The notes under the pieces are model-generated. The model was not told the DNA's origin. It did no database searches and saw only the letters and a list, made by a program, of their open reading frames with translations. Below, piece by piece: positions 1,763 to 33,129 of a DNA stretch of 33,210 nucleotides. This stretch comes from a virus: the IMG/VR virus record IMGVR_UViG_3300021964_000270, positions 1 to 33,210 of that record; one strand, written 5' to 3'. Position 1 is the stretch's first letter. Each line of letters opens with the position of its first letter. Position numbers and translations under genes: made by a program.

Positions 1763-1792
1763 ATTAAACCAAACCCTAAACATTTTTGCTAA
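1763..1792 (-). promoter_or_regulatory. Possible promoter for the small-gene cassette
   Basis: On the minus strand, TTAGCA (1792-1787), an 18-nt spacer and TTTAAT (1768-1763) form a sigma70-like arrangement about 45 nt before the start at 1717. A small hairpin (GGGTC/GACCC) lies in the leader. The surrounding sequence is AT-rich, so a chance match is quite possible. Confidence 0.3.
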
Positions 1793-1850
1793 TACCATTT
1801 TATTCTTAAAAATCATTTTTTATACCGCTCACTGACACGCCGCACACCGA

Positions 1851-1968
1851 GGTCACTGTGGTACACCCCCTATAAGGGGGTGGTGTACCTGGGTGACCCT
1901 AATTCGGTGCTTTTTGCCCCGGGGTCACTAAAGGTCACAGTGACCCTCTAGTGTACCTGAGTGACCCT
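1851..1968. repeat. Cluster of GTGTACC-N2-RGTGACC repeats; candidate replication origin
   Basis: Three copies of a 16-bp element, GTGTACCnnRGTGACC, occur at 1851-1866 (inverted), 1883-1898 and 1951-1966. The half-site GTGACC/GGTCAC occurs six times in all (also at 1923-1928, 1933-1938 and 1940-1945). The first two copies face each other across caccccct-ata-agggggtg and form a long imperfect palindrome. An AT-rich tract (about 1763-1825) adjoins. The cluster ends two bases before the stop codon of the primase-helicase gene. Iterated binding sites plus an AT-rich tract beside a replication gene is the usual design of a phage or plasmid origin. A regulator-binding array is the alternative. Confidence 0.6.
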
Positions 1969-1969
1969 G

Positions 1970-3928
1970 TCATTTTCTGCCAAGTAGCATGGCTGCTGAC
2001 CAAGTGGCATCCTCAACCACCCACCCGCTTGAGTCCTTTCTCAACAATCCGCTCGATTTCAGATTGGCGAGCGGTCCTTTATCCTCGATCCCGTATGCGT
2101 ATTTTTTGGCGGTCATGGGTTTGTGTTTAACATCGAAAACACTCCGGGCAAACGCGACCGATACATACGGGTGACCGCAAAATAAATCGCGCCCGGATTC
2201 GTGCCATAGACTCTCAAAAAACTTTTTGTTATTGACGATAGTGTGATCGACTTTTTCGATCGGCGTCCCCTCCTGGATCACGGCGCTCGATACCGGCTCG
2301 CCATCCTCATCAAACCACCCGTCAATTGCCTGGCTTTGCAGTTGCACAAAAACCGTTGGCGCCAGCTCGGCATCCTTTGACTTGCGTTGCACGATCTCGA
2401 TCGGTTTATCCTTTTTGCCGGGCACGATTGATATCTCGATATCGAGCGCACCACGCCAGGCGGATGATCCCCTGGCTCGATGCTGCGCTTCGTCGCTTAC
2501 GCCGGTGTGATGAACTAATAGCACGGTGCAATCAAAGTCGACCATCAAAGCATTGCACGCATCGAGCATGGTCTTGGCGTCCTGGGCGCTGTTCTCATCG
2601 CCTTGTAGGAATCGGTGCAGCGTATCGACCACAATCATCTTGGGGGTGTCTGGCAGTTGCCTCACGGCCTCGCGCACCCGGTGATAACCTTCCGGCGTGT
2701 TGAGATCACACCCGGTAGAACTGATCCACATATTGTCGATTTGTGCTTGGTGGAACTGCGACCATGCGGCGATCCTCGAGCGCAAACCATGGTGACCCTC
2801 ACCGGCCAGATACACCACTGAACCGCCGTGCACCTTATTGCCAAACCATTGATCCTTGCCGGTGGCGACGTGCAGACACCAGTCGAGAACGACGAAGGTC
2901 TTACCGCCCCCACTAGGCCCGTGCACCATCACCAGGGCGCGATCTTGTATGTGGTGCTTTACGATCCACGATATTGGTGCAGGGCGTGCGCAGTAATCGG
3001 ACGCCGGTACCAGCCAATCGGATTTGGGTGGCTCGAGCAGCGCGAGCAGATCGTGCCCTGCCTGGTGGAAATCGTTGGCGTCCATTCCGGGCATCGGTGG
3101 GATCACCATGGAGCCACCGAATTTGGCGATCGCCTGCTCGGCGTATGCCTTGCCCACCCCCGACTCGTCGTTGTCCGCCACGATAATGACGCCGGCGCCT
3201 TTGTGCTTTGCTGTAACGTGTTGAGTTACAGGCACCAGGTTGGACGCGCTGAATGCGACATATACCATCGCACCGGTGATTTCGTGAATGGTTGCGGCGG
3301 TGGCGAAACCCTCGGCGATATAGACCGTTTGACCAGGCTCACCGATTGACCAATAGCACCCCCCGGTTTTGCCCCCGGTATGGTATCGCTTTTCGCCATT
3401 GCGATCGATGTACTGAATACTGGTGAGCTCATCCTCGTAATACAGCGGCACCATGAGCCGGCCGTCTCCGGTAATTCGCACGCCGTGCGCCTGTACGCCC
3501 TTCCTGGTCAAATATTCGTGCTCGGGCGACGCAAGGCCCGCCTGGTCCCATATCGTTTGCACGGTGTTGGTGGCGACCTCCTGGCGCTTTTCTTTCTCCG
3601 CATCCCGTGCGGCCTTTGCCTCGGCCATTCGCCTGGTAACCGCCATATTCTCCGCAAGCGTGAGATCCCGATCGACATCAGCCCGGAATACGTGATCCAC
3701 GCCCAGCTTCCAGTCGCCAAACCGACCGGCGGGTATGTTGTCGCCATACGCCACATACCAGGATGTTTTCTTGCGCCCAAACCGGCGCAGCTTGCCATCG
3801 AGTACAACCGATTCCGGCGCCTCGAGCCCGGCGCTTTCAATCGCATCGATCAGTTGCTGCTCCGGTGGTAATGTCACCCGGCTGGGTGGTGTCCATGGTC
3901 CATTAAATATATTAGTTAGATCTGCCAT
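1970..3928 (-). CDS. Toprim primase - RepA-like (AAA_25) helicase fusion
   Basis: A 652-residue replication protein. Residues about 55-75 hold the G-x-FGDWKxG motif seen ahead of Toprim domains in TraC-like phage and plasmid primases. The Toprim domain shows EGFATA (206-211) and DNDESG (252-257), the metal-binding residues for primer synthesis. The second half is a hexameric RecA-fold helicase of the RepA/AAA_25 type: Walker A GPSGGGKT (337-344), Walker B MIVVDTL (about 431-437) and LLVHHTG (470-476). No N-terminal zinc finger is visible. It should prime and unwind at the fork. It is transcribed away from the recombination operon, with AAGGGG six bases before the ATG, and its 3' end abuts the repeat cluster. 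No DNA polymerase gene is present, so the phage probably uses the host replicase. Confidence 0.9.
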   Translation of the reverse strand: MADLTNIFNGPWTPPSRVTLPPEQQLIDAIESAGLEAPESVVLDGKLRRFGRKKTSWYVAYGDNIPAGRFGDWKLGVDHVFRADVDRDLTLAENMAVTRRMAEAKAARDAEKEKRQEVATNTVQTIWDQAGLASPEHEYLTRKGVQAHGVRITGDGRLMVPLYYEDELTSIQYIDRNGEKRYHTGGKTGGCYWSIGEPGQTVYIAEGFATAATIHEITGAMVYVAFSASNLVPVTQHVTAKHKGAGVIIVADNDESGVGKAYAEQAIAKFGGSMVIPPMPGMDANDFHQAGHDLLALLEPPKSDWLVPASDYCARPAPISWIVKHHIQDRALVMVHGPSGGGKTFVVLDWCLHVATGKDQWFGNKVHGGSVVYLAGEGHHGLRSRIAAWSQFHQAQIDNMWISSTGCDLNTPEGYHRVREAVRQLPDTPKMIVVDTLHRFLQGDENSAQDAKTMLDACNALMVDFDCTVLLVHHTGVSDEAQHRARGSSAWRGALDIEISIVPGKKDKPIEIVQRKSKDAELAPTVFVQLQSQAIDGWFDEDGEPVSSAVIQEGTPIEKVDHTIVNNKKFFESLWHESGRDLFCGHPYVSVAFARSVFDVKHKPMTAKKYAYGIEDKGPLANLKSSGLLRKDSSGWVVEDATWSAAMLLGRK

Positions 3929-3952
3929 TTTTATCCCCTTGAAAAAAATCCC

Positions 3953-3982
3953 TTGTATTTAAACTCTTTTGCTGATTACAAT
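3953..3982 (+). promoter_or_regulatory. Promoter of the replication/recombination operon
   Basis: TTGTAT (3953-3958), an 18-nt spacer and TACAAT (3977-3982) lie about 60 nt before the ATG at 4042. The two hexamers are the same as those of the promoter in front of the XRE regulator gene. TTGTA and TACAA are also each other's reverse complement, so the site could double as an operator. Confidence 0.6.
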
Positions 3983-3986
3983 GCAA
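3958..3986 (-). promoter_or_regulatory. Candidate promoter of the primase-helicase gene, overlapping the divergent promoter
   Basis: On the minus strand TTGCAT (3986-3981), a 17-nt spacer and TTTAAA (3963-3958) precede the primase start at 3928 by about 30 nt. It lies face to face on the same 30 bp as the plus-strand promoter, so polymerase can probably occupy only one of the two at a time. The -10 match is moderate. Confidence 0.4.
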
Positions 3987-4041
3987 GCACCGATCAACAC
4001 GAATGGTTCGAACCGATCGGAAAACTAAAGGTAATGACAAC

Positions 4042-12520: not shown

Positions 12521-12922
12521 CTACAAAAACACCCTCGATGGTGAATTAGGCACAACACCATAAACCGCATCAATTGCTTCAACGTCAGTCCTACGTCCTT
12601 CACCTACCAATCGTACATTCACATGCCAGCCATCAATCGGTGCAGTCTCTGGGTACTCGTTACCCTCATCGTCCGTGAGTGTATTACCTGTAGGCTCGTA
12701 GATCGTACCGACCAGATCAATGGCGTAGTCGTGAGTATGGCTAACTAGATACGGTTCGCCATCGGGTGTCTGCGTAGACTCGCCCGTCTCTTCGTCTACT
12801 ACGGTTACGTAGTCCTGTTGGAAGAATGCAGAGAATACAGTAGGCAGGTCTGCTTCTGAGTTTAGCTTGATGTAGAAGTCGGTCTTTGGTGCTTCTACTA
12901 CTTCTTCGATTATTTCACTCAT
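12521..12922 (-). CDS. Hypothetical protein of the tail-fibre region
   Basis: A 133-residue acidic protein. The N-terminal part (FYIKLNSEADLPTVFSAFF) and a central EETGESTQTPDGEPYLVSHT loop region are followed by a beta-rich end (GWHVNVRLVGEGRR). I do not recognise a family. It follows the second fibre gene with an ATGA overlap, a usual place for a fibre assembly protein or a small baseplate part; the role is inferred from place only. Confidence 0.6.
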   Translation of the reverse strand: MSEIIEEVVEAPKTDFYIKLNSEADLPTVFSAFFQQDYVTVVDEETGESTQTPDGEPYLVSHTHDYAIDLVGTIYEPTGNTLTDDEGNEYPETAPIDGWHVNVRLVGEGRRTDVEAIDAVYGVVPNSPSRVFL

Positions 12923-14499
12923 GATGTTAGAGCCTCAAGTTGATCTGCTGTAAGTTTTCTCGGCCAATGTTTTATCGACTCAATATGACCATTAAAGTTC
13001 GCCCCAATATGTAATGTTGTTAATCCAGTTGGCAGAGTAACGCTAGTATCTGTTTTTGATGAGCCGTTTCTTGCACCTATAGCTGATGAGCTATCCGCAG
13101 TAATGCAAAATTTAAACAAATCTTCAGTAATCCCACTAAATGAATCTAAAACAGAGCTTGTACCGCCTACACTAACCCGATACTGATACGTTCCATCAGG
13201 AAATTTAAACGCCCTAATGCTATTTGTCACATCCGTGCCAGTTGATCCATCATTAAAATTGAAGCTATATTCTGTAAAAGGCGCGTCTGATAAAAATTTA
13301 CCAGACCAATATACGGTTACAGCATCTTGATTATAACCAAACTCACTCACGCCTATGCTCGCTACATCAGCAGAGCGTGTGGTGGTGCTACCGGAATTAC
13401 TCGGGATGTAGGATGTGGGGAAACTTCCGGCTTCGAGTTGGGCGCCATAGACGTATATACCCGAAGTACCGTCACCTGTATAGGTTACAACGCCGCTTGA
13501 ATTAGAAACGCCAAATATCACATAATCACGAATACTTGCAGATTCAGTGAATGTTGTTGAGCATCTATACCACCCATTCCCGCAATTTTGAATTGTAGCT
13601 AAATCATGGCTTGATGCTACAGTATCAACAACACCGTCAGCTAAGTTAAAAATACTTAACTGCGATGAGTTGTTTAGTGTTCCTAAAACTAAAAAATCTC
13701 TTTCGGCTGATTTTGCAAAAATACTTATTGTATAAATTATTCCTGATGAATATGCAAAGTTAAAATAGCTTGAATGCTCTTCGTTTAAAGTATTTTCATA
13801 AATTTTAAAAGCGTTCTGCGACCCATCAGGGGCATTTACTGTTGAACTTGCTATTGCAGAATCTGATGCATTCCAACCCGAACCCGTAAAGTCTTCCGAA
13901 TACGTAACTAGATTAGTCCTACTCTCCTCAACCAGCAGCCCCAACCGATTACCGTCTGCGTCATACTCAATGCGCGGTACATTAGTTGGATGGTTGAATA
14001 GGGTGAGCGGTGCATTGGGTTGATCGAATAGAACTTCGCGTACGGAGATGTTGTCGATAGAATATGTATAATTGGCGTAAGCGTTTCTTAAGCCAACAAC
14101 TGTAGATGTGTTTGTCGCTACAAATATTTCTGTAATTGTGCCTGTTAAGCCTCCAACATGCCTATTAAGTATTACCCAATGATCCGAGCCTGTGCCATAT
14201 CCAACTTCAAGCCTGCCTTCAGTTGCGGAATTACTGCCACTAATTGTAGCTGTCACGCTGTAAACTTTTCCAACCGTAGTTGAAATAGTTTGATAAATTT
14301 CACTATTAATCGCGGAAGCAACATTACCTGTCCCGCCTGAAACTGTAGCCCCATTAACTTTCGTCCAATCGCTATCACTATCAAACGTCCCATTAGTTAC
14401 AAGCTCATCACCATAGCTTATAGGCCGTAACGCTGTGCCACTAGATGCTCGGGTGAACGTAATTAAATCAGAGTAATTGTCAAAGTTCTTTGTACCCAT
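12919..14499 (-). CDS. Tail fibre / receptor-binding protein 2 (paralogue of the next gene)
   Basis: A 526-residue protein. ATG at 14499 is chosen because GGAG lies six bases upstream and it overlaps the stop of the preceding fibre gene as TAATG; the frame opens 12 bases earlier. Residues about 30-150 form a carbohydrate-binding-like module starting ELVTNGTFDSDSDW and ending YTYSIDNISVRE. The middle has NGWYRCSTTF and GIYVYGAQLEAG followed by PTSYIPSNSG, and the end is a LamG/concanavalin-like fold (YWSGKF... HIGANFNGHIESIKHWPRKL). All three elements recur in the neighbour. It is likely a sugar-binding host-recognition protein at the tail tip. AT-rich codons set it apart from the head and replication genes. 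Confidence 0.75.
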   Translation of the reverse strand: MGTKNFDNYSDLITFTRASSGTALRPISYGDELVTNGTFDSDSDWTKVNGATVSGGTGNVASAINSEIYQTISTTVGKVYSVTATISGSNSATEGRLEVGYGTGSDHWVILNRHVGGLTGTITEIFVATNTSTVVGLRNAYANYTYSIDNISVREVLFDQPNAPLTLFNHPTNVPRIEYDADGNRLGLLVEESRTNLVTYSEDFTGSGWNASDSAIASSTVNAPDGSQNAFKIYENTLNEEHSSYFNFAYSSGIIYTISIFAKSAERDFLVLGTLNNSSQLSIFNLADGVVDTVASSHDLATIQNCGNGWYRCSTTFTESASIRDYVIFGVSNSSGVVTYTGDGTSGIYVYGAQLEAGSFPTSYIPSNSGSTTTRSADVASIGVSEFGYNQDAVTVYWSGKFLSDAPFTEYSFNFNDGSTGTDVTNSIRAFKFPDGTYQYRVSVGGTSSVLDSFSGITEDLFKFCITADSSSAIGARNGSSKTDTSVTLPTGLTTLHIGANFNGHIESIKHWPRKLTADQLEALTS

Positions 14500-16790
14500 T
14501 ATTCGCTCCAATCCAATACGGTAAAGCTCGACTCAGTTGAATCAAAACTTAAACTCAATGACGGCTCTAGCGATGGTGCTGTTGCGGCTACTAATCCAGA
14601 GTCGGTCAAGTCTACGTTCCAGACTCTAAAGGTCTTGATTGTACCCATATATGTGTAGCCGAGTGACAGGTTAGTGCTAGACAGGTCTGGTAGTGCCGTT
14701 GGTGTTGTGTCAGCGGTTAGTGCTGTGCCTTCTACTGCACCGTTGATAAAGGTTGAGCCGTGACGACTTGAGATGTTGTATGGGACTAGAATGTCGGGAG
14801 TATAATAACCAGCACTTCCGGAAAGCGTATCAAAAGTGCCACTAGACACCTGCTGAAACACCTGCGTTCCATCTAAATAATCAATACTGCCAACATGCGT
14901 TGACACGTAACTCATTATTCTATTATTTCCGTCTTTTTCCCACTTTAATTGTACAACATTTAACGCTTCCGTATCATCAGCATACGTCATTCGCCCATCC
15001 ATCTGTATAGACACAGACAGTGGGTTTATTTCGCGGACGGAGATGTTGTCTAAACGAACATATTCGCCTGCTGTTTTAGCAATCCTTATATCTGTCCCAC
15101 GAAAGCCAGCACCAACAAATACATGCTCATACGTTCCAACTGCCGCAGAACCTAACGCATATGCCTGTGATGAGCTGTAGTTATATAAATTAATGCCTGT
15201 TGTGCTAACTTCAACAACATCGAATGTTAGCTTATAGACCTTTCCAACCTCATAAGTTTCTGACTGAGTAATAGAACAAAGCGTTCCAGAACCAGTTACC
15301 ATTTTTATCGCACCGTTATCATAAGATATAGTTCCACCAGCGCCTTCGCCCCAACCAGAAATATCCGTATCAAACGTCCCATTAGTAACCAACTCATCAC
15401 CAATGTACTGCGGTGTAGGCCATGGAAGATTAGCGGATGGGATTGTGAGTGTCTCAGCGGCTCTTGTTACTGAGGAGCCTGAAGTTGGGATGTAGCTTGA
15501 TGGGGTTGAGCCTTCTTCGAGTTGAGCGCCCCAGATGTAGACTCCTGACACTCCGTCTCCTGTTCTACCTGCGGCAGAGGAACCGTTGGCCGTTGTAAGA
15601 GCAATTTGTATTCGTTCAGATATTGTCCCTGTGGTTGTTGTGTTTGTTAAAGAGCATCTATACCAACCATTTCCAACACTTTGAATTGTGCCAGACATGC
15701 CAATATCCTCAGTTCCTTTTAAGCCGTTTTGTATATCAAACCAAACGCCTAAATTTGTTTGCGCGCCCCCAGCATCGTATTGCTGTAAGATTATCCACTG
15801 AACGCCTGAATATTTCACGTATACACTGCGCGTATATTCTGTATTAGCACTAACAGAAGTTGTGCTAAAAAGTGAATGATAAGTAGTGGTAGCATCCCAC
15901 ACTAATTTTGACGCATTTTCTGTTCCATCTGGGCTTATTTCTGCGTTGTGCGTAAGAATTATCCCGCCTCCGCTCCATCCAGAAAGAAAATTAGAATAAT
16001 CTTCAAGATTAGTCCGCGCTTCACTCTCCTGCAACAAACCCTCATCAACCCACTCATAGCCGTTGTATACGTGATGGCCGCGTCTCGGGAGATACGCTGC
16101 CGATGTGGTGGTGGGTACGTATGAGTCTCCACGGTCTGGGTTGTCTACCATGCCGCCTAAGTCGGAGCGGTAGAGGTGTGGAAATGCAAAATATATCGTT
16201 CCTGCCGCAGAGTTGGAAAACAAAAATATACTTGCATTAGATGAAGATAAGGCAGTAAAGGTTACACTAATTTTGTTCCACTCTGCTGTTAGTTGACTAT
16301 AGTAGCTTTCGAAAACAATATCTGAACCCTGATAAACTCTATATTTTGCTTCCGTTGCAGTTCCTTTTTTTGCATAAAACTCTAAAGTGTATTGAACATT
16401 TGCTTCCAATGTCACACCCTGAACAAAGTCACTTGCAGAGTTGGCAGAAGTGAACAGCACAGCATTATTATTTCCGTCAGGACCTAACTCAGTTATAGAT
16501 GTTTTTTCTCCGCCCTCTGCCACGCTCCAATTAGCTGAAAAGTCAGTATATTTAATCAAATTATGCGGCGCCCACTTAATCAACCCGTCACTATCCACCA
16601 TAGTGGCATTGCCGTTACGGGAGTGGGTGATTAGGTTGGAGAATGTGGTCTTTGAGCCATTGGCCCTGTAATACTCGCCATCAAAATCCGCAAGCAGACC
16701 AGGTATAGATCCATTGACCGATGCGTCTCGCAAAGCCTGGGACATTTTGTTCGGGCTTCGCTGGATGTTGATACCAATATTTACGCTCAT
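14499..16790 (-). CDS. Tail fibre / receptor-binding protein 1
   Basis: A 763-residue protein. Residues about 15-60 (NGSIPGLLADFDGEYYRANG, then TFSNLITHSRNGNATMVD) form a start unit typical of phage tip proteins. After it come at least two beta-sandwich modules, each ending in a GAQLExG..P.SYIP motif. One module begins ELVTNGTFDTDISGWGEG, matching the next gene, and the C-terminal LamG-like part (YMGTIKTFRVWNVDL) also matches. It starts in an ATGA overlap with the gene at 16787. Probable host-surface glycan binding. Confidence 0.75.
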   Translation of the reverse strand: MSVNIGINIQRSPNKMSQALRDASVNGSIPGLLADFDGEYYRANGSKTTFSNLITHSRNGNATMVDSDGLIKWAPHNLIKYTDFSANWSVAEGGEKTSITELGPDGNNNAVLFTSANSASDFVQGVTLEANVQYTLEFYAKKGTATEAKYRVYQGSDIVFESYYSQLTAEWNKISVTFTALSSSNASIFLFSNSAAGTIYFAFPHLYRSDLGGMVDNPDRGDSYVPTTTSAAYLPRRGHHVYNGYEWVDEGLLQESEARTNLEDYSNFLSGWSGGGIILTHNAEISPDGTENASKLVWDATTTYHSLFSTTSVSANTEYTRSVYVKYSGVQWIILQQYDAGGAQTNLGVWFDIQNGLKGTEDIGMSGTIQSVGNGWYRCSLTNTTTTGTISERIQIALTTANGSSAAGRTGDGVSGVYIWGAQLEEGSTPSSYIPTSGSSVTRAAETLTIPSANLPWPTPQYIGDELVTNGTFDTDISGWGEGAGGTISYDNGAIKMVTGSGTLCSITQSETYEVGKVYKLTFDVVEVSTTGINLYNYSSSQAYALGSAAVGTYEHVFVGAGFRGTDIRIAKTAGEYVRLDNISVREINPLSVSIQMDGRMTYADDTEALNVVQLKWEKDGNNRIMSYVSTHVGSIDYLDGTQVFQQVSSGTFDTLSGSAGYYTPDILVPYNISSRHGSTFINGAVEGTALTADTTPTALPDLSSTNLSLGYTYMGTIKTFRVWNVDLTDSGLVAATAPSLEPSLSLSFDSTESSFTVLDWSE

Positions 16791-26462: not shown

Positions 26463-28916
26463 TTAGCTGCCGCCGTCGTTGCCAAGGCAGAATGCAGTCG
26501 CGTGACGTACAGCGACGTCGCATGATTGCAGTGCCACAACACGTACAGTGCCGCTAGTGCTCGCAGTGTAAGGATCGACCACGATGTCCAGGCCACCGAA
26601 CATACCAACCAAAAGCTGGCTGAAGTCGCCGAAGTACAGATCACCAGAGGCAACCTGGTTCGATACGATCGTTCGGAATCCGTTCATTGTGCCGCCGGGC
26701 TCAACTACGAACTGCGCGGTGTTGCTGGCCTTCTCGACCGACTTCAATGCACCGTACATAGTCGCGTTTGAGATATAGGAACCACCGTTGCCAAGAGCAT
26801 TGTCTTCGCGAACCTTGGTTTCCATATCAACTATTTGGGCAAACGTCGGGATCAAGTCAGGAGCGGTGCCGAAGTCAACCGTGTTGATTCCTGAAGTGTT
26901 CTTGATACCGGTGGGCTGGCCAGAAGAGCCAGATCCTGCGAGTGCACCCAAGTCGATCGCCAAAGCGATTGCCTGAGCCAGATCGTCACGGATCAATGCT
27001 TCGATATCCAAAGAACTTTGGATAAGTAGCTGGCGTGAACAATCAGTGAAAGCGCCCAAAGTTTTGGGAGTCATTGACACTGAGCCGACAGTCATTTCGG
27101 ATTCAGACGATGCACCACCCTCGGTAGCAATCCAAGCAGCGGCAGCAGCAGCAGTCTTCTTGGGGATTTTTACATCGCCAGATAGACCATTCAGCATACG
27201 CGCGCCGGCTTGCATTACGCTTGAAGCGTTGCGAAGCACGTCGATGAAATCACCACCACGGAAGTCGTCAGTGAACAATGCAGACTCGTCGGCGCTGTTC
27301 AGGTCACGCTTCCAGTTGCGCATTACCTCGGCAGGCAAAAGGATGCCCTGGGCTGTGCGACCGTATGCGTCAGCGGCAGCGCGCGAGCATTCGAATTCGA
27401 AAGCAGCGGCTTCTTGAGCGCGTCGGTCAGTTGGGTTTGCAAGAGCGTGAATCGCGCGAAGCAAGGAGAAGCGCTTGACTTCTTTTTGAGTCATGCCGAT
27501 TTCTTTCTCTTCAAGCGCGCGCTGTGAACCGATAAGATCGAGCAATTCGCCACGGAATTCTTCGATGCTGCGGCCTTCAGCAATGGCTTTCTGAGCGAGA
27601 TCGCTCTTGTTATGACGGGCGCCAAGCTCAACAATTTGAGCGGCGTTGCGTTGTGCGGCTTTGCGGGCTTCTGCCTCGACTGCCGCGATATCAATAGATT
27701 CTGACATGATAGATTCCTCTTTGAAGTCAGTTGTAATCACGGGTTCGTTTGAAACCTCGCCAGACCGCCCCACGCCGACTGTCACATCTGCGGGAATTGA
27801 TACAAGCGATGCCTCCATCGGGCGCCAGGATTTAGCGACGTATGTCTCCTTATCCTTGCGCTCGAGTTTGTTGATCGCGTAACCGACCGAGATATTCGCC
27901 CGGATTCCGTCGACCACATCGGTGAAAGCCTCTTGGGCGAGCGCGCCTTTTCCAAAGCGCACCGTCGCGCGGAGTCGCCGCGCCGAGCCATCGAGCTCCA
28001 CTGATTCGATCACGCCGATTTGCTTTTCTGGATCGTGATCCAAAAGCAGCGGGGCGCGTCCGCTTGCGAGAAACGACAAATCAATCGCCTCGCTCGAGTG
28101 TTCCAATACTTCCATCCCGAATGATCGTTGCACCGGCTCCTCGGAGCTGATCGCAATGCGGACCTTCCGGGTCTCTTCGTCGATTGTCTTGGCCTCGAGC
28201 TCCATCGCCCGGTGCTCGATATCCGTCACCGACAGTCGATTCGCCTGCGAATCATCCTCGATCGACTCGTCGTGCGCTTCGATCATTTTTTCCTCGATAT
28301 CACTCATCTTTCTCTCCTCGATAGCCGGCTCGAACTTGATCGGCTCGTAACCGTTATCATTTAACCATTGCTGCGCTGCTTCAACGGTCCACTTTGTTTT
28401 GTCGAATCGAATCGACTGGATCTCACTGGCACCATCCAGCAGGCCCAGGATAATGTGAATCCCGTCGCCCAGCTCGTCATTCATTCGCCGAAAGCCCTGG
28501 TATTTCTCCGGGTCCGTTATCCTGGCGGCGTGCTCGTTTGGGTATGGTCTCATATCATCCATTCGATCAGCCTCGTCTAATGAATTGAGACGTTCGACGA
28601 TTCGATTTGCCCAAGATTGACCGACATCCCCGCCCCAGAGCGCCCAGGCGATTCGCCCTGCGCTTGGGTAGCCTTCCTCGCCAGGTCGGAATCCTTCCGC
28701 CTTTTTGTCAACCTCATGTCGAGCAAAATAAGAATACATACGCCGCACAGTATCAATGCCAAGCTCGCGACGGTTACTAATGTCACGAGCACGCGCGACA
28801 CCCACCTCAGTGCCGCCGCGACCATATTCTTCGCGCCATTCCAGGCCTCGAGCAGCCTCCTCCGCCATAGATTCGCTTGGCTTTGTGTCAATTTCTGCTC
28901 CTTTATACGTTGCCAT
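26463..28916 (-). CDS. Fused head protein: accessory domain - S78 prohead protease - HK97-fold major capsid protein
   Basis: One open frame of 817 residues carries three units. Residues 1-203: a phage head domain with KKAEGFRPGEEGYPSAGRIA, WALWGGDVGQSWANRIVERL and, near 170-195, FDKTKWTVEAAQQWLNDNGY. Residues 204-403: an HK97-type S78 protease (GMEVLEHSSEAIDLSFLASG, His294 in LLDHD, Ser343 in NISVGY). Residues 404-817: a capsid protein with a helical delta-like part (about 404-480) and the HK97 fold (GILLPAEVMRNWKRDL... DFIDVLRNASSVMQAGARML, AWIATEGG, GLDIVVDPYTASTSGTVRVV). The units are separate genes in most phages. ATG codons at residues 204 and 404 each have a good Shine-Dalgarno box. The start at 28916 has GAGGT upstream and overlaps the portal gene by 14 nt. 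Confidence 0.9.
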   Translation of the reverse strand: MATYKGAEIDTKPSESMAEEAARGLEWREEYGRGGTEVGVARARDISNRRELGIDTVRRMYSYFARHEVDKKAEGFRPGEEGYPSAGRIAWALWGGDVGQSWANRIVERLNSLDEADRMDDMRPYPNEHAARITDPEKYQGFRRMNDELGDGIHIILGLLDGASEIQSIRFDKTKWTVEAAQQWLNDNGYEPIKFEPAIEERKMSDIEEKMIEAHDESIEDDSQANRLSVTDIEHRAMELEAKTIDEETRKVRIAISSEEPVQRSFGMEVLEHSSEAIDLSFLASGRAPLLLDHDPEKQIGVIESVELDGSARRLRATVRFGKGALAQEAFTDVVDGIRANISVGYAINKLERKDKETYVAKSWRPMEASLVSIPADVTVGVGRSGEVSNEPVITTDFKEESIMSESIDIAAVEAEARKAAQRNAAQIVELGARHNKSDLAQKAIAEGRSIEEFRGELLDLIGSQRALEEKEIGMTQKEVKRFSLLRAIHALANPTDRRAQEAAAFEFECSRAAADAYGRTAQGILLPAEVMRNWKRDLNSADESALFTDDFRGGDFIDVLRNASSVMQAGARMLNGLSGDVKIPKKTAAAAAAWIATEGGASSESEMTVGSVSMTPKTLGAFTDCSRQLLIQSSLDIEALIRDDLAQAIALAIDLGALAGSGSSGQPTGIKNTSGINTVDFGTAPDLIPTFAQIVDMETKVREDNALGNGGSYISNATMYGALKSVEKASNTAQFVVEPGGTMNGFRTIVSNQVASGDLYFGDFSQLLVGMFGGLDIVVDPYTASTSGTVRVVALQSCDVAVRHATAFCLGNDGGS
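27705..27720 (-). promoter_or_regulatory. Internal ribosome-binding site and ATG for the capsid unit
   Basis: Inside the fused gene, minus-strand AAAGAGGAATCTATCATG gives an AGAGGA box with seven bases to an in-frame ATG (residue 404, MSESIDI). This is exactly the border between protease and capsid. It would allow a separate 414-residue capsid protein. Confidence 0.6.
28305..28319 (-). promoter_or_regulatory. Internal ribosome-binding site and ATG for the protease unit
   Basis: Minus-strand GAGGAGAGAAAGATG gives AGGAG with about six bases to an in-frame ATG (residue 204, MSDIEEK). It lies at the border of the accessory domain and the protease, so translation could start here too. Confidence 0.6.
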
Positions 28917-30983: not shown

Positions 30984-32840
30984 TCACCGCCATGAATTAG
31001 CGAAACCGCCAGCGCGAGGCGCCCTGGTCGGGATGAATGCTTGTTTCTTCTCTGCTTTTTCTGGAGTTTTTGCTTCCATTTTTTGTGGCTCTGACTCCAA
31101 TTTATCGGCAAAAGCATTGACATTTATCCCAATGATAGCATATGCGGCGATGCTGTACACCATGCAATCGAGCGCCTCGTTTCTCGGTCGGATCTTCTCG
31201 AACATCCGTTTTTTGAATCCTTTGTGATATTTAGTGACAATCTTCTCAGCCGTGAGCTGCCGAAAGTATTCCTCATGCAGCGAATCCGAAAAATGCACAT
31301 ACCCGGCGCCAGGCTCTTGGATGCGCAGCCTGGCAAAAACCAAATCCTTGACCGTATCTACGCCGATCGGAAAAAGCGGGCATTTTGCCACGTTATTCTT
31401 GCTCGGGCGCCCGGCGATTGCCTTACCCTCACCACCGACACCCTTGATCGCGAAAATCCGGCGCCCCATGTTCTTTTTGCAATACTGATACACCGAATTG
31501 GTAAAGTGACCACCTGAGTCTACGCAAGCGGCACGAATGCCCAGGCGCCGACCGCTCTCGGTCTCGTATTGTCTCATCAAGTGCGAATCCAGGTTAGTCC
31601 AGAGCTGTGGCGTGCTCGGATCGCCGTATAGCGTCGAATGCGATATCACCCAGGACTCGTCATCGCGCCCCCAGCCGATCACACTGATCTCGAGCCGGTT
31701 ATCCTGCACATCCACGCCGGCCGTCAGAATGATCACATCCTCCGGTATAAATGGCATCTCCTCGCGCCGATCGGCAAGAATGTAATCCTCGAGCGTCTCG
31801 CCAGGATCGGACCATAATTCGCCCAGGTAAGTGTTCGTCCACACCCTGAGCTGCTCCGGGTTCTTTTTGACATTCAGAAAATCTCGCACGCCATCCGCGA
31901 GCGGTGTCCACGGCGAATACAGACCATTGATCGAGAAACCGGCCACCCCCTTGAATTCAGCCGTCGCCACCCATTGACCATTGCGAATAGACCACACCCG
32001 GTCCGACTCATTCCAAAGCACACCGCAATGCTCGCACATATAACCGGCGGTGTCGGGCTGTCCTTCCTCCCACTGGACGCCAGCCCACTTGAGCACCTGC
32101 TCATGGTGGCAATGCTTGCACGGCACAAAATACTTGCGCTGGTCGGATTTGTCGTAAGCGTCCTGGATTCGACTGGCGCCATCGTTTGTGGGGGTGCTTA
32201 CCATCACAATCTTACGGTTCCAGAATGTGGCCGCCCGCTTTCGCGCCAGGCTAATCGGATCACCTTCAGCGCCGGCCGAGGATGGATAGCGGTCGACCTC
32301 GTCGCATAGCACCAGGCGTATCGGCCTCGAGGCGAGCCCGCTCGGGCTATTGGCACCGACCATGGTAATGGCGCCACCTGGGAATACTTTGTGCAGCGTC
32401 GTATTGCCCGAGTCACGAGCTCTGGGGTCTTTTACTTTATCCCGGATTGCAGGCGTTGAGCGAATAAGTCCAGACGCGACTCGATCCTTTGAGAAACTTT
32501 GTGCCATGTCCAGCGTCGGCTGAAGCACCAGAATTGGACACGGATTGTGATGAATATGATACCCAATAATATTGAGTATCGCTTCAGTCTTGCCGAGCTG
32601 TGCGCCCGCCATAACGACAACTTCGCTGATATTTGGGTCAGAGCACGCATCCATTATTCCCCTTTGGTATTCGGCCCTCGATGTGTACCATCGACCAGGC
32701 TCCGCGCTACTTTGAGAGTCGAGCCGTCTTTCTCGGTCGGCCCACTCGCTTACTGTTAGTTTTGGCGGCGGCTTTAGCGTCGCCAGTGCTTTCTTCAGGT
32801 GATTCGACAGTCGCTTTTGTCGGGTCGATTCTTGGGTCAT
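30984..32840 (-). CDS. terL: Terminase large subunit, GpA family
   Basis: A 618-residue packaging ATPase-nuclease. It opens like lambda gpA (PPPKLTVSEWADRERRL). The ATPase has MAGAQLGKT (77-85) and LVLCDEVDR (176-184). A zinc finger-like pair of CxxC (241/244 and 269/272) is inserted after it. The nuclease domain contains ILTAGVDVQDNRLEISVIGW (Asp377, Asp380). The Lys/Glu-rich C-terminus should bind the portal. GpA terminases cut at cos with staggered nicks 12 bp apart, in line with the 12-bp terminal repeat. Its first 134 nt overlap terS in another frame. Confidence 0.95.
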   Translation of the reverse strand: MTQESTRQKRLSNHLKKALATLKPPPKLTVSEWADRERRLDSQSSAEPGRWYTSRAEYQRGIMDACSDPNISEVVVMAGAQLGKTEAILNIIGYHIHHNPCPILVLQPTLDMAQSFSKDRVASGLIRSTPAIRDKVKDPRARDSGNTTLHKVFPGGAITMVGANSPSGLASRPIRLVLCDEVDRYPSSAGAEGDPISLARKRAATFWNRKIVMVSTPTNDGASRIQDAYDKSDQRKYFVPCKHCHHEQVLKWAGVQWEEGQPDTAGYMCEHCGVLWNESDRVWSIRNGQWVATAEFKGVAGFSINGLYSPWTPLADGVRDFLNVKKNPEQLRVWTNTYLGELWSDPGETLEDYILADRREEMPFIPEDVIILTAGVDVQDNRLEISVIGWGRDDESWVISHSTLYGDPSTPQLWTNLDSHLMRQYETESGRRLGIRAACVDSGGHFTNSVYQYCKKNMGRRIFAIKGVGGEGKAIAGRPSKNNVAKCPLFPIGVDTVKDLVFARLRIQEPGAGYVHFSDSLHEEYFRQLTAEKIVTKYHKGFKKRMFEKIRPRNEALDCMVYSIAAYAIIGINVNAFADKLESEPQKMEAKTPEKAEKKQAFIPTRAPRAGGFANSWR

Positions 32841-33129
32841 AGTTGCTGAGCTCCTCGAGCGCTTCGTTGATTAGATCCTCCATGATTTGCTGGCACGCTG
32901 CCGCATTGATCTCGGCTGCAACCACCGGGGCACCTTTGACCGGCACCGCCAGCAGTTTGGCCTTGAGTGCCGCCAGGACATCATTCCACGCGCTCACTAC
33001 ATCCTCGGCAGTTACCAGCTCGCCGTTGACCTTCTTGAGCTCGAGCTCCGCGATCTCAGCCTCGGCTGCCACCTTCCTGGTGCGCGCCTCCTCGTATGTT
33101 GGACCTGCTTTTTTCACGCTTACATTCAT
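32707..33129 (-). CDS. terS: Terminase small subunit, Nu1-like
   Basis: A 140-residue protein. Residues 10-60 are a coiled coil (TYEEARTRKVAAEAEIAELE, LKKVNGELVTAEDVV) typical of gpNu1, followed by a helical stretch (AWNDVLAALKAKLLAVPVKG, VVAAEINAAACQQIMEDLIN). The tail (about 95-140) is Lys/Ala/Pro-rich and has an AT-hook-like RVGRPRKTA. No classical N-terminal winged helix is visible. It recognises cos and forms the terminase with TerL. It begins about 70 bp from the repeat at the window end, as Nu1 begins close to cos. Confidence 0.85.
   Translation of the reverse strand: MNVSVKKAGPTYEEARTRKVAAEAEIAELELKKVNGELVTAEDVVSAWNDVLAALKAKLLAVPVKGAPVVAAEINAAACQQIMEDLINEALEELSNYDPRIDPTKATVESPEESTGDAKAAAKTNSKRVGRPRKTARLSK

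Follow-up and report, generated by a model that had tools for sequence, protein, structure and literature searches.

An iteron array directly 3' of a phage primase-helicase gene as a probable replication origin and probable binding site of the encoded protein

The replication origins of most environmental phages are unknown, and a cluster of short repeats abutting a primase-helicase gene in one such phage raises the question of whether an origin, and the protein that binds it, can be recognised there. The phage is an IMG/VR record of 33,210 bp, analysed in its entirety and referred to here as the window, in which the replication genes lie on the left and the structural genes, portal and terminase (30984-33129, at the opposite end from the repeats) on the right. 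The gene next to the cluster (1970..3928, minus strand, transcribed leftward, stop codon at 1970-1972) encodes a 652-residue protein that combines a Toprim_3 primase (Pfam E 1.2e-11), an AAA_25 helicase (PF13481, E 3.4e-37) and a C-terminal domain predicted to be a winged helix. RSF1010 RepA (1g8y/1nlf) is its sole PDB relative by sequence (E 7.7e-7, profile positions 323-502), and the window protein has the helicase core of this RepA-type family. Just 74 bp (3929-4002), overlapped by a single ORF without a PHROG match, separate this gene from Sak4. Elsewhere in the window, an 817-residue major head protein (26463-28916) also matches head maturation protease families and is probably a protease-capsid fusion, while two adjacent proteins (12919-14511 and 14499-16790) both match tail protein family phrog_5939, a possible duplication.

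The original prediction described three copies of GTGTACCnnRGTGACC and six half-sites, and these are indeed present within a 116-bp array (1851..1966) whose end lies 3-4 bp past the primase-helicase stop codon, so that the cluster touches the end of the gene as had been claimed. The exact matches are GTGTACCtgaGTGACC (1951..1966, plus strand), the first after the stop, GTGTACCtggGTGACC (1883..1898, plus strand) and GTGTACCacaGTGACC (1851..1866, minus strand), the last two being the arms of a 48-bp palindrome (1851-1898) in which GGTCACtgtGGTACAC faces GTGTACCtggGTGACC. At its centre, again as predicted, is a C5/G5 hairpin (CACCCCC-TATAA-GGGGGTG, 1864..1882) with a CTTATAG core on the gene strand. 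GTGACC half-sites start at 1851, 1893, 1923, 1933, 1940 and 1961, the other 27 in the window being scattered; three of the six stand apart from the composite iterons (1923-1928 and 1933-1938 on the minus strand, 1940-1945 on the plus strand), and the last two of these form the palindrome GGTCACaGTGACC. GTGTACC itself has four copies in 33 kb, three of them within the cluster. When up to two mismatches are allowed, the composite motif occurs four times in the whole window against 0.14 expected, a count that none of 100 shuffles reached, and chance does not yield it. Iteron spacings peak at 5 and 10 bp, corresponding to half and full helical turns, as would suit proteins that bind cooperatively along the DNA. 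When folded as single-stranded DNA, the region outperforms shuffled sequences by 4.9 sd. Beyond the inverted iteron lies the AT-rich tract that had been noted (1763..1835), a candidate melting region in which the 60-mers starting at 1763-1765 reach 80% A+T, tied highest in the window. The two iteron groups are separated by a spacer, GGGGCAAAAAGCACCGAATT (1901..1920, minus strand), carrying a GGGCRAA motif common to relatives; of 59 array loci, 26 have this motif in the first 260 bp past the stop, against an expectation of 0.043 per 260 bp, and the conserved GGGGCAAAAnGC spacer occupies the same place in those 26.

A search for the repeat beside the primase gene of related phages had been suggested, and its outcome was divided, since the arrangement of the array recurs and the repeat sequence does not. 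In Idiomarinaceae phage 1N2-2, Alteromonas PB15 and XX1924, Salicola CGphi29, ct3Oc712 and a metagenomic contig, an array directly follows the primase stop, and the repeats differ (GGTACA, GGTTCA, GGGGACA, TGGGACA, GGTAATA). A lone protein query retrieved one relative, and an alignment query added 80 loci that were 52-62% identical. In 50 of 85 loci, the 200 bp at the primase stop contain five or more copies of a single 6-mer, and in 49 of the 85 no other part of the locus has a 6-mer array as dense (a strict maximum). The same was seen in an independent held-out set of 64 loci, which includes MAG contigs, the sole yield of a scan of bacterial genome contigs: 48 had at least five copies at the primase stop. 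Across these phages the repeat is variously GGTAAC, GGAAC, GACCC, GGTCCG and others. Scanning viral contigs for the exact 16-mer is the wrong approach because the sequence is phage-specific; it returned 73 matches, single and scattered, that were judged mostly chance. A mobile element as the source of the repeats was also considered and rejected, the iteron sequence varying between phages while its position is constant.

In a subset of the relatives, the array is accompanied by DnaA boxes. Perfect DnaA boxes (TTATNCACA) occur at 2.13/kb in the 300 bp after the stop versus 0.067/kb elsewhere and are present in 15 of 59 array loci, where a tandem pair typically precedes the array and a single box follows it. 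In eleven loci (L094-L098, L101, L107, L127, L133, L134 and L141), perfect boxes (TTATCCACA and variants) were seen just past the primase stop, often in tandem and usually with one behind the hairpin. DnaA is not essential to the layout, because the window has an array and no DnaA box.

The array is missing after the gene in about 20 relatives, which form one subfamily with an insertion in the C-terminal domain. Seven members of the subfamily without a downstream array (L106, L113, L119, L130, L139, L143 and L146) have three to four TGATTGA repeats within the 3'-terminal part of the primase coding sequence, 40-180 bp before the stop; these may be intragenic iterons, of which lambda O offers an example, or equally just the encoded LI(D/E) peptides. 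Likewise, about eight TGAACGTGCG-like repeats lie some 1300-1050 bp before the repA stop of L085 (ctyzp037), within the coding sequence and between the portions for primase and helicase, where they encode a repetitive ERAS/ERAT stretch and are candidate intragenic iterons. In ct3Oc712 (L007), a Prim-Pol/PriCT primase replaces Toprim, and the helicase, the type of C-terminal domain and the array layout are kept; the origin therefore appears to follow the C-terminal domain, whichever type of primase is present.

What, then, would bind the repeats? AlphaFold2 predicts the ~95-residue C-terminal domain (residues 560-652, encoded by 1973..2251, minus strand; mean pLDDT 86) to be a winged helix with the order H-E-H-H-H-E-E-H, in which helix 3 (residues 604-612) is the predicted recognition helix. 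The domain has no Pfam family. This topology fits a winged helix-turn-helix fold, and the database matches are largely winged helices of the ArsR/MarR type, albeit weak (best Foldseek E 0.15, VIA Z about 6); a search of solved structures with the domain returned nothing relevant. Once divergence elsewhere in the protein is corrected for, the six of 604 primase columns most strongly associated with iteron identity are K609, Y612, K603, K608, Y610 and H602, all within the recognition helix and its N-cap (residues 602-612, encoded by 2093..2125, minus strand). The best column has a partial r of 0.54; no column outside the domain exceeds 0.17, and 100 shuffles of the labels gave at most 0.28. The iteron classes behind these values were assigned from k-mer counts and inspection, in sequences that share ancestry. 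With the remainder of the domain and protein controlled for, the helix retains a partial r of 0.49, a value reached in 0 of 1000 permutations, whereas residues 613-652, whose codons are closer to the array, are left with only 0.03 when the helix is taken into account, making linkage insufficient as the sole cause of the coevolution.

The correspondence can be read as pairs of helix motif and repeat: SAKQY with GGTAAC, SAKVY with GGAAC, SAKLY with GGTACA, SASIY with GCGCAAC, RT(I/V)RNM with GACCC and RTIEND with CCCCTA. A natural near-isogenic pair is provided by L095 and L097, whose last ~95 residues differ at three positions (Q to V in the helix, S to A and P to T) and whose arrays are made of GGTAAC and GGAAC, respectively. 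In held-out loci, some of them close to training loci, an identical 11-residue helix predicted the right iteron in 16 of 16 cases, of which the nearest neighbour in residues 1-555 gave 8 correctly, and a helix at least 0.8 identical did so in 27 of 31 (neighbour 11 of 31). When restricted to held-out loci less than 93% identical to training, the figures were 5/5 for an identical helix (neighbour 4/5) and 16/20 at 0.8 identity or above (neighbour 7/20). Prediction breaks down at lower helix identity, as expected. Two phages with a GGTAAC-type helix and no array at the stop were found to have the predicted GGTAAC arrays at displaced positions, +306 to +414 and +999 to +1101 bp. Taken together, the coevolution and the held-out prediction point to the DNA-binding domain of the initiator as the determinant of iteron specificity, and constitute a strong argument that the C-terminal winged helix of the primase-helicase contacts the iterons. 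Three ligands had been put forward, and it is the primase-helicase that this favours; the 52-residue HTH protein and the XRE protein gained no support.

The central hairpin follows a different rule, its core being near-constant, CT(T/A)(T/A)AG, in relatives (CTTTAG, CTATAG, CTTAAG or similar). Of 117 loci, 91 have a core hairpin no more than 330 bp past the stop, with a median position of +120, and none has one in an intragenic control stretch. Across 20 distinct hairpins, the stem keeps its two innermost pairs and the other six vary on both sides, giving a stem covariation score of 0.80, versus 0.19 for shuffled and 0.13-0.24 for slid pairings; as the hairpins were chosen as symmetric sequences, the paired percentage is inflated by selection and what is informative is how varied the stems are around a single core. 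Selection appears to act on pairing and not on sequence, because the stem differs even among phages with the same iteron and a nearly identical DNA-binding domain. This fits a DNA hairpin or cruciform; an RNA role is conceivable, though the hairpin has no terminator signature.

Such a structure after a stop codon, with a strong hairpin and a covarying stem, could suggest a transcription terminator or RNA element that ends the primase operon, the repeats being by-products of the structure. There is, however, no T-run or terminator-like site at the hairpin, the only terminator-like site found being at 1544-1559 on the plus strand, and the best Rfam match (E 0.71) is far under the gathering score. 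Since this explanation also leaves unaccounted for the DnaA boxes and the multi-copy iterons on both strands that track the recognition helix, we regard it as extremely improbable. An operator or regulatory region, at which the primase-helicase, a Cro/XRE protein or an HTH regulator would bind the repeats and control downstream genes with no origin role, is unlikely as well. The array is intergenic and upstream of same-strand genes, and in relatives a Cro/XRE-like gene often adjoins the primase, between it and Sak4. Yet the window has the array and no Cro/XRE family match at that place, and the place of the array beside the primase is constant, the next annotated gene being what varies (MazG, or hypothetical genes of different kinds). 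Moreover, no sigma-70-like promoter was found in 1500-2300, specificity maps to the primase's own C-terminal helix, and regulation would not explain the DnaA boxes or the constant hairpin core.

Direct-repeat arrays beside rep genes can also be centromeres, and parS repeats adjoin mycobacteriophage repA (PMC7157519), which lends some plausibility to a partition, incompatibility or packaging site (parS-like or pac-like) bound by the primase-helicase or another protein. No ParA/ParB match was obtained among the window proteins tested, the terminase genes are at the far end of the window, and specificity tracks the primase-helicase, all of which make a site of this kind very unlikely. The repeat cluster is, in our opinion, very probably the replication origin of the phage, bound by its own primase-helicase-initiator fusion. 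This reading of the sequence data is favoured because the protein that probably binds the array is the primase-helicase of replication, because DnaA boxes are enriched after the stop in relatives and because there are precedents in PICI, pRN1 and RSF1010. The candidate origin originally proposed has thus gained support from a layout common to most relatives, from winged-helix coevolution and from the DnaA boxes that some relatives carry. Cumulative GC skew, which had been recommended as a check, was of no help; it follows gene orientation and marks no origin.

A possible scenario, in which DNA opening and the start of replication at the cluster are suggested by analogy and by the DnaA boxes, would begin with the C-terminal winged helix of the primase-helicase, for which the argument is strongest, binding the iterons just 3' of its own gene. 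As these face each other across the GC-rich hairpin, bound protein would gather there, and protein on both sides of the hairpin might assemble the RepA-type helicase ring with its fused primase. The DNA would presumably open at the hairpin or in the neighbouring AT-rich tract. In the weakest step of the scheme, which is speculative, the fused primase may then start at the exposed hairpin strand, as at RSF1010 ssiA or the pRN1 stem-loop.

These phages might further represent a widespread class of origins, defined by a fused primase, a RepA-type helicase and an iteron-binding initiator, with a hairpin selected for its structure and a recognition helix that changes often, in step with the iterons and according to a readable code. 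Close relatives would then have mutually orthogonal origins, perhaps escaping interference by co-infecting relatives or satellites; the case for this wider proposal is evenly balanced. No description of the layout for AAA_25 phages was found in the open-access papers searched. If the reading is correct, origins of this kind could be located from sequence alone, directly 3' of a RepA-type primase-helicase, and their specificity could be read from an 11-residue stretch, which amounts to a testable protein-DNA recognition code with L095/L097 as a natural test pair. It also raises the question of why closely related phages keep switching origin specificity.

How does this arrangement compare with known systems? 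In the IncQ plasmid RSF1010, oriV has iterons, and primase, helicase and iteron binder are three proteins. The helicase domain in the window is a sequence relative of RSF1010 RepA, but a single 652-residue chain takes the place of a separate RepC iteron binder and RepB' primase, and its primase is of the Toprim type (Prim-Pol in ct3Oc712), not RepB'. The RSF1010 primase RepB' starts at the hairpin sites ssiA/ssiB (PMC4434180). The alpha protein of satellite phage P4, with its sites ori1 and crr, is a primase-helicase with a C-terminal iteron-binding domain, and the iterons are short and of the TGNNC type. The window protein is likewise a primase-helicase with a putative iteron-binding domain at its C-terminus, and its iterons are short and similar in type, whereas the helicase class and the site layout differ. 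The C-terminal domain of the window protein has no sequence match to a relevant solved structure, and the P4 alpha domain was absent from its structure matches, which speaks neither for nor against a relation.

Closer in layout are pRN1 ORF904 and phage BIP-1, in which a stem-loop origin conserved in structure and not in sequence lies directly 3' of a primase-helicase-winged-helix gene (PMC4234260). The window likewise has such a fusion, with a predicted winged helix, and, 3' of its own gene, a hairpin conserved in structure, as indicated above by its covariation score and median position. Theirs, however, is a Prim-Pol with an SF3 helicase and a winged helix, with a ~100 nt stem-loop and no origin iterons, in contrast to the Toprim_3 primase, RepA-type AAA_25 helicase, short hairpin and iteron arrays found here. 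In PICI/SaPI elements, the origin directly follows the initiator gene on its 3' side and has two element-specific sets of iterons; the initiator can be a primase fusion (PMC6092414). An iteron array immediately 3' of the initiator gene, with phage-specific sequences, is also what was found in the window and most relatives. The differences are that PICI iterons flank an AT-rich region, whereas here they flank a GC-rich hairpin with the AT tract outside, and that the context here is a whole tailed-phage genome with an AAA_25/RepA-type helicase. By analogy with these systems, the putative origin in the window is best read as a variant on a known PICI/P4/pRN1-like plan, in which the origin lies 3' of the initiator gene.
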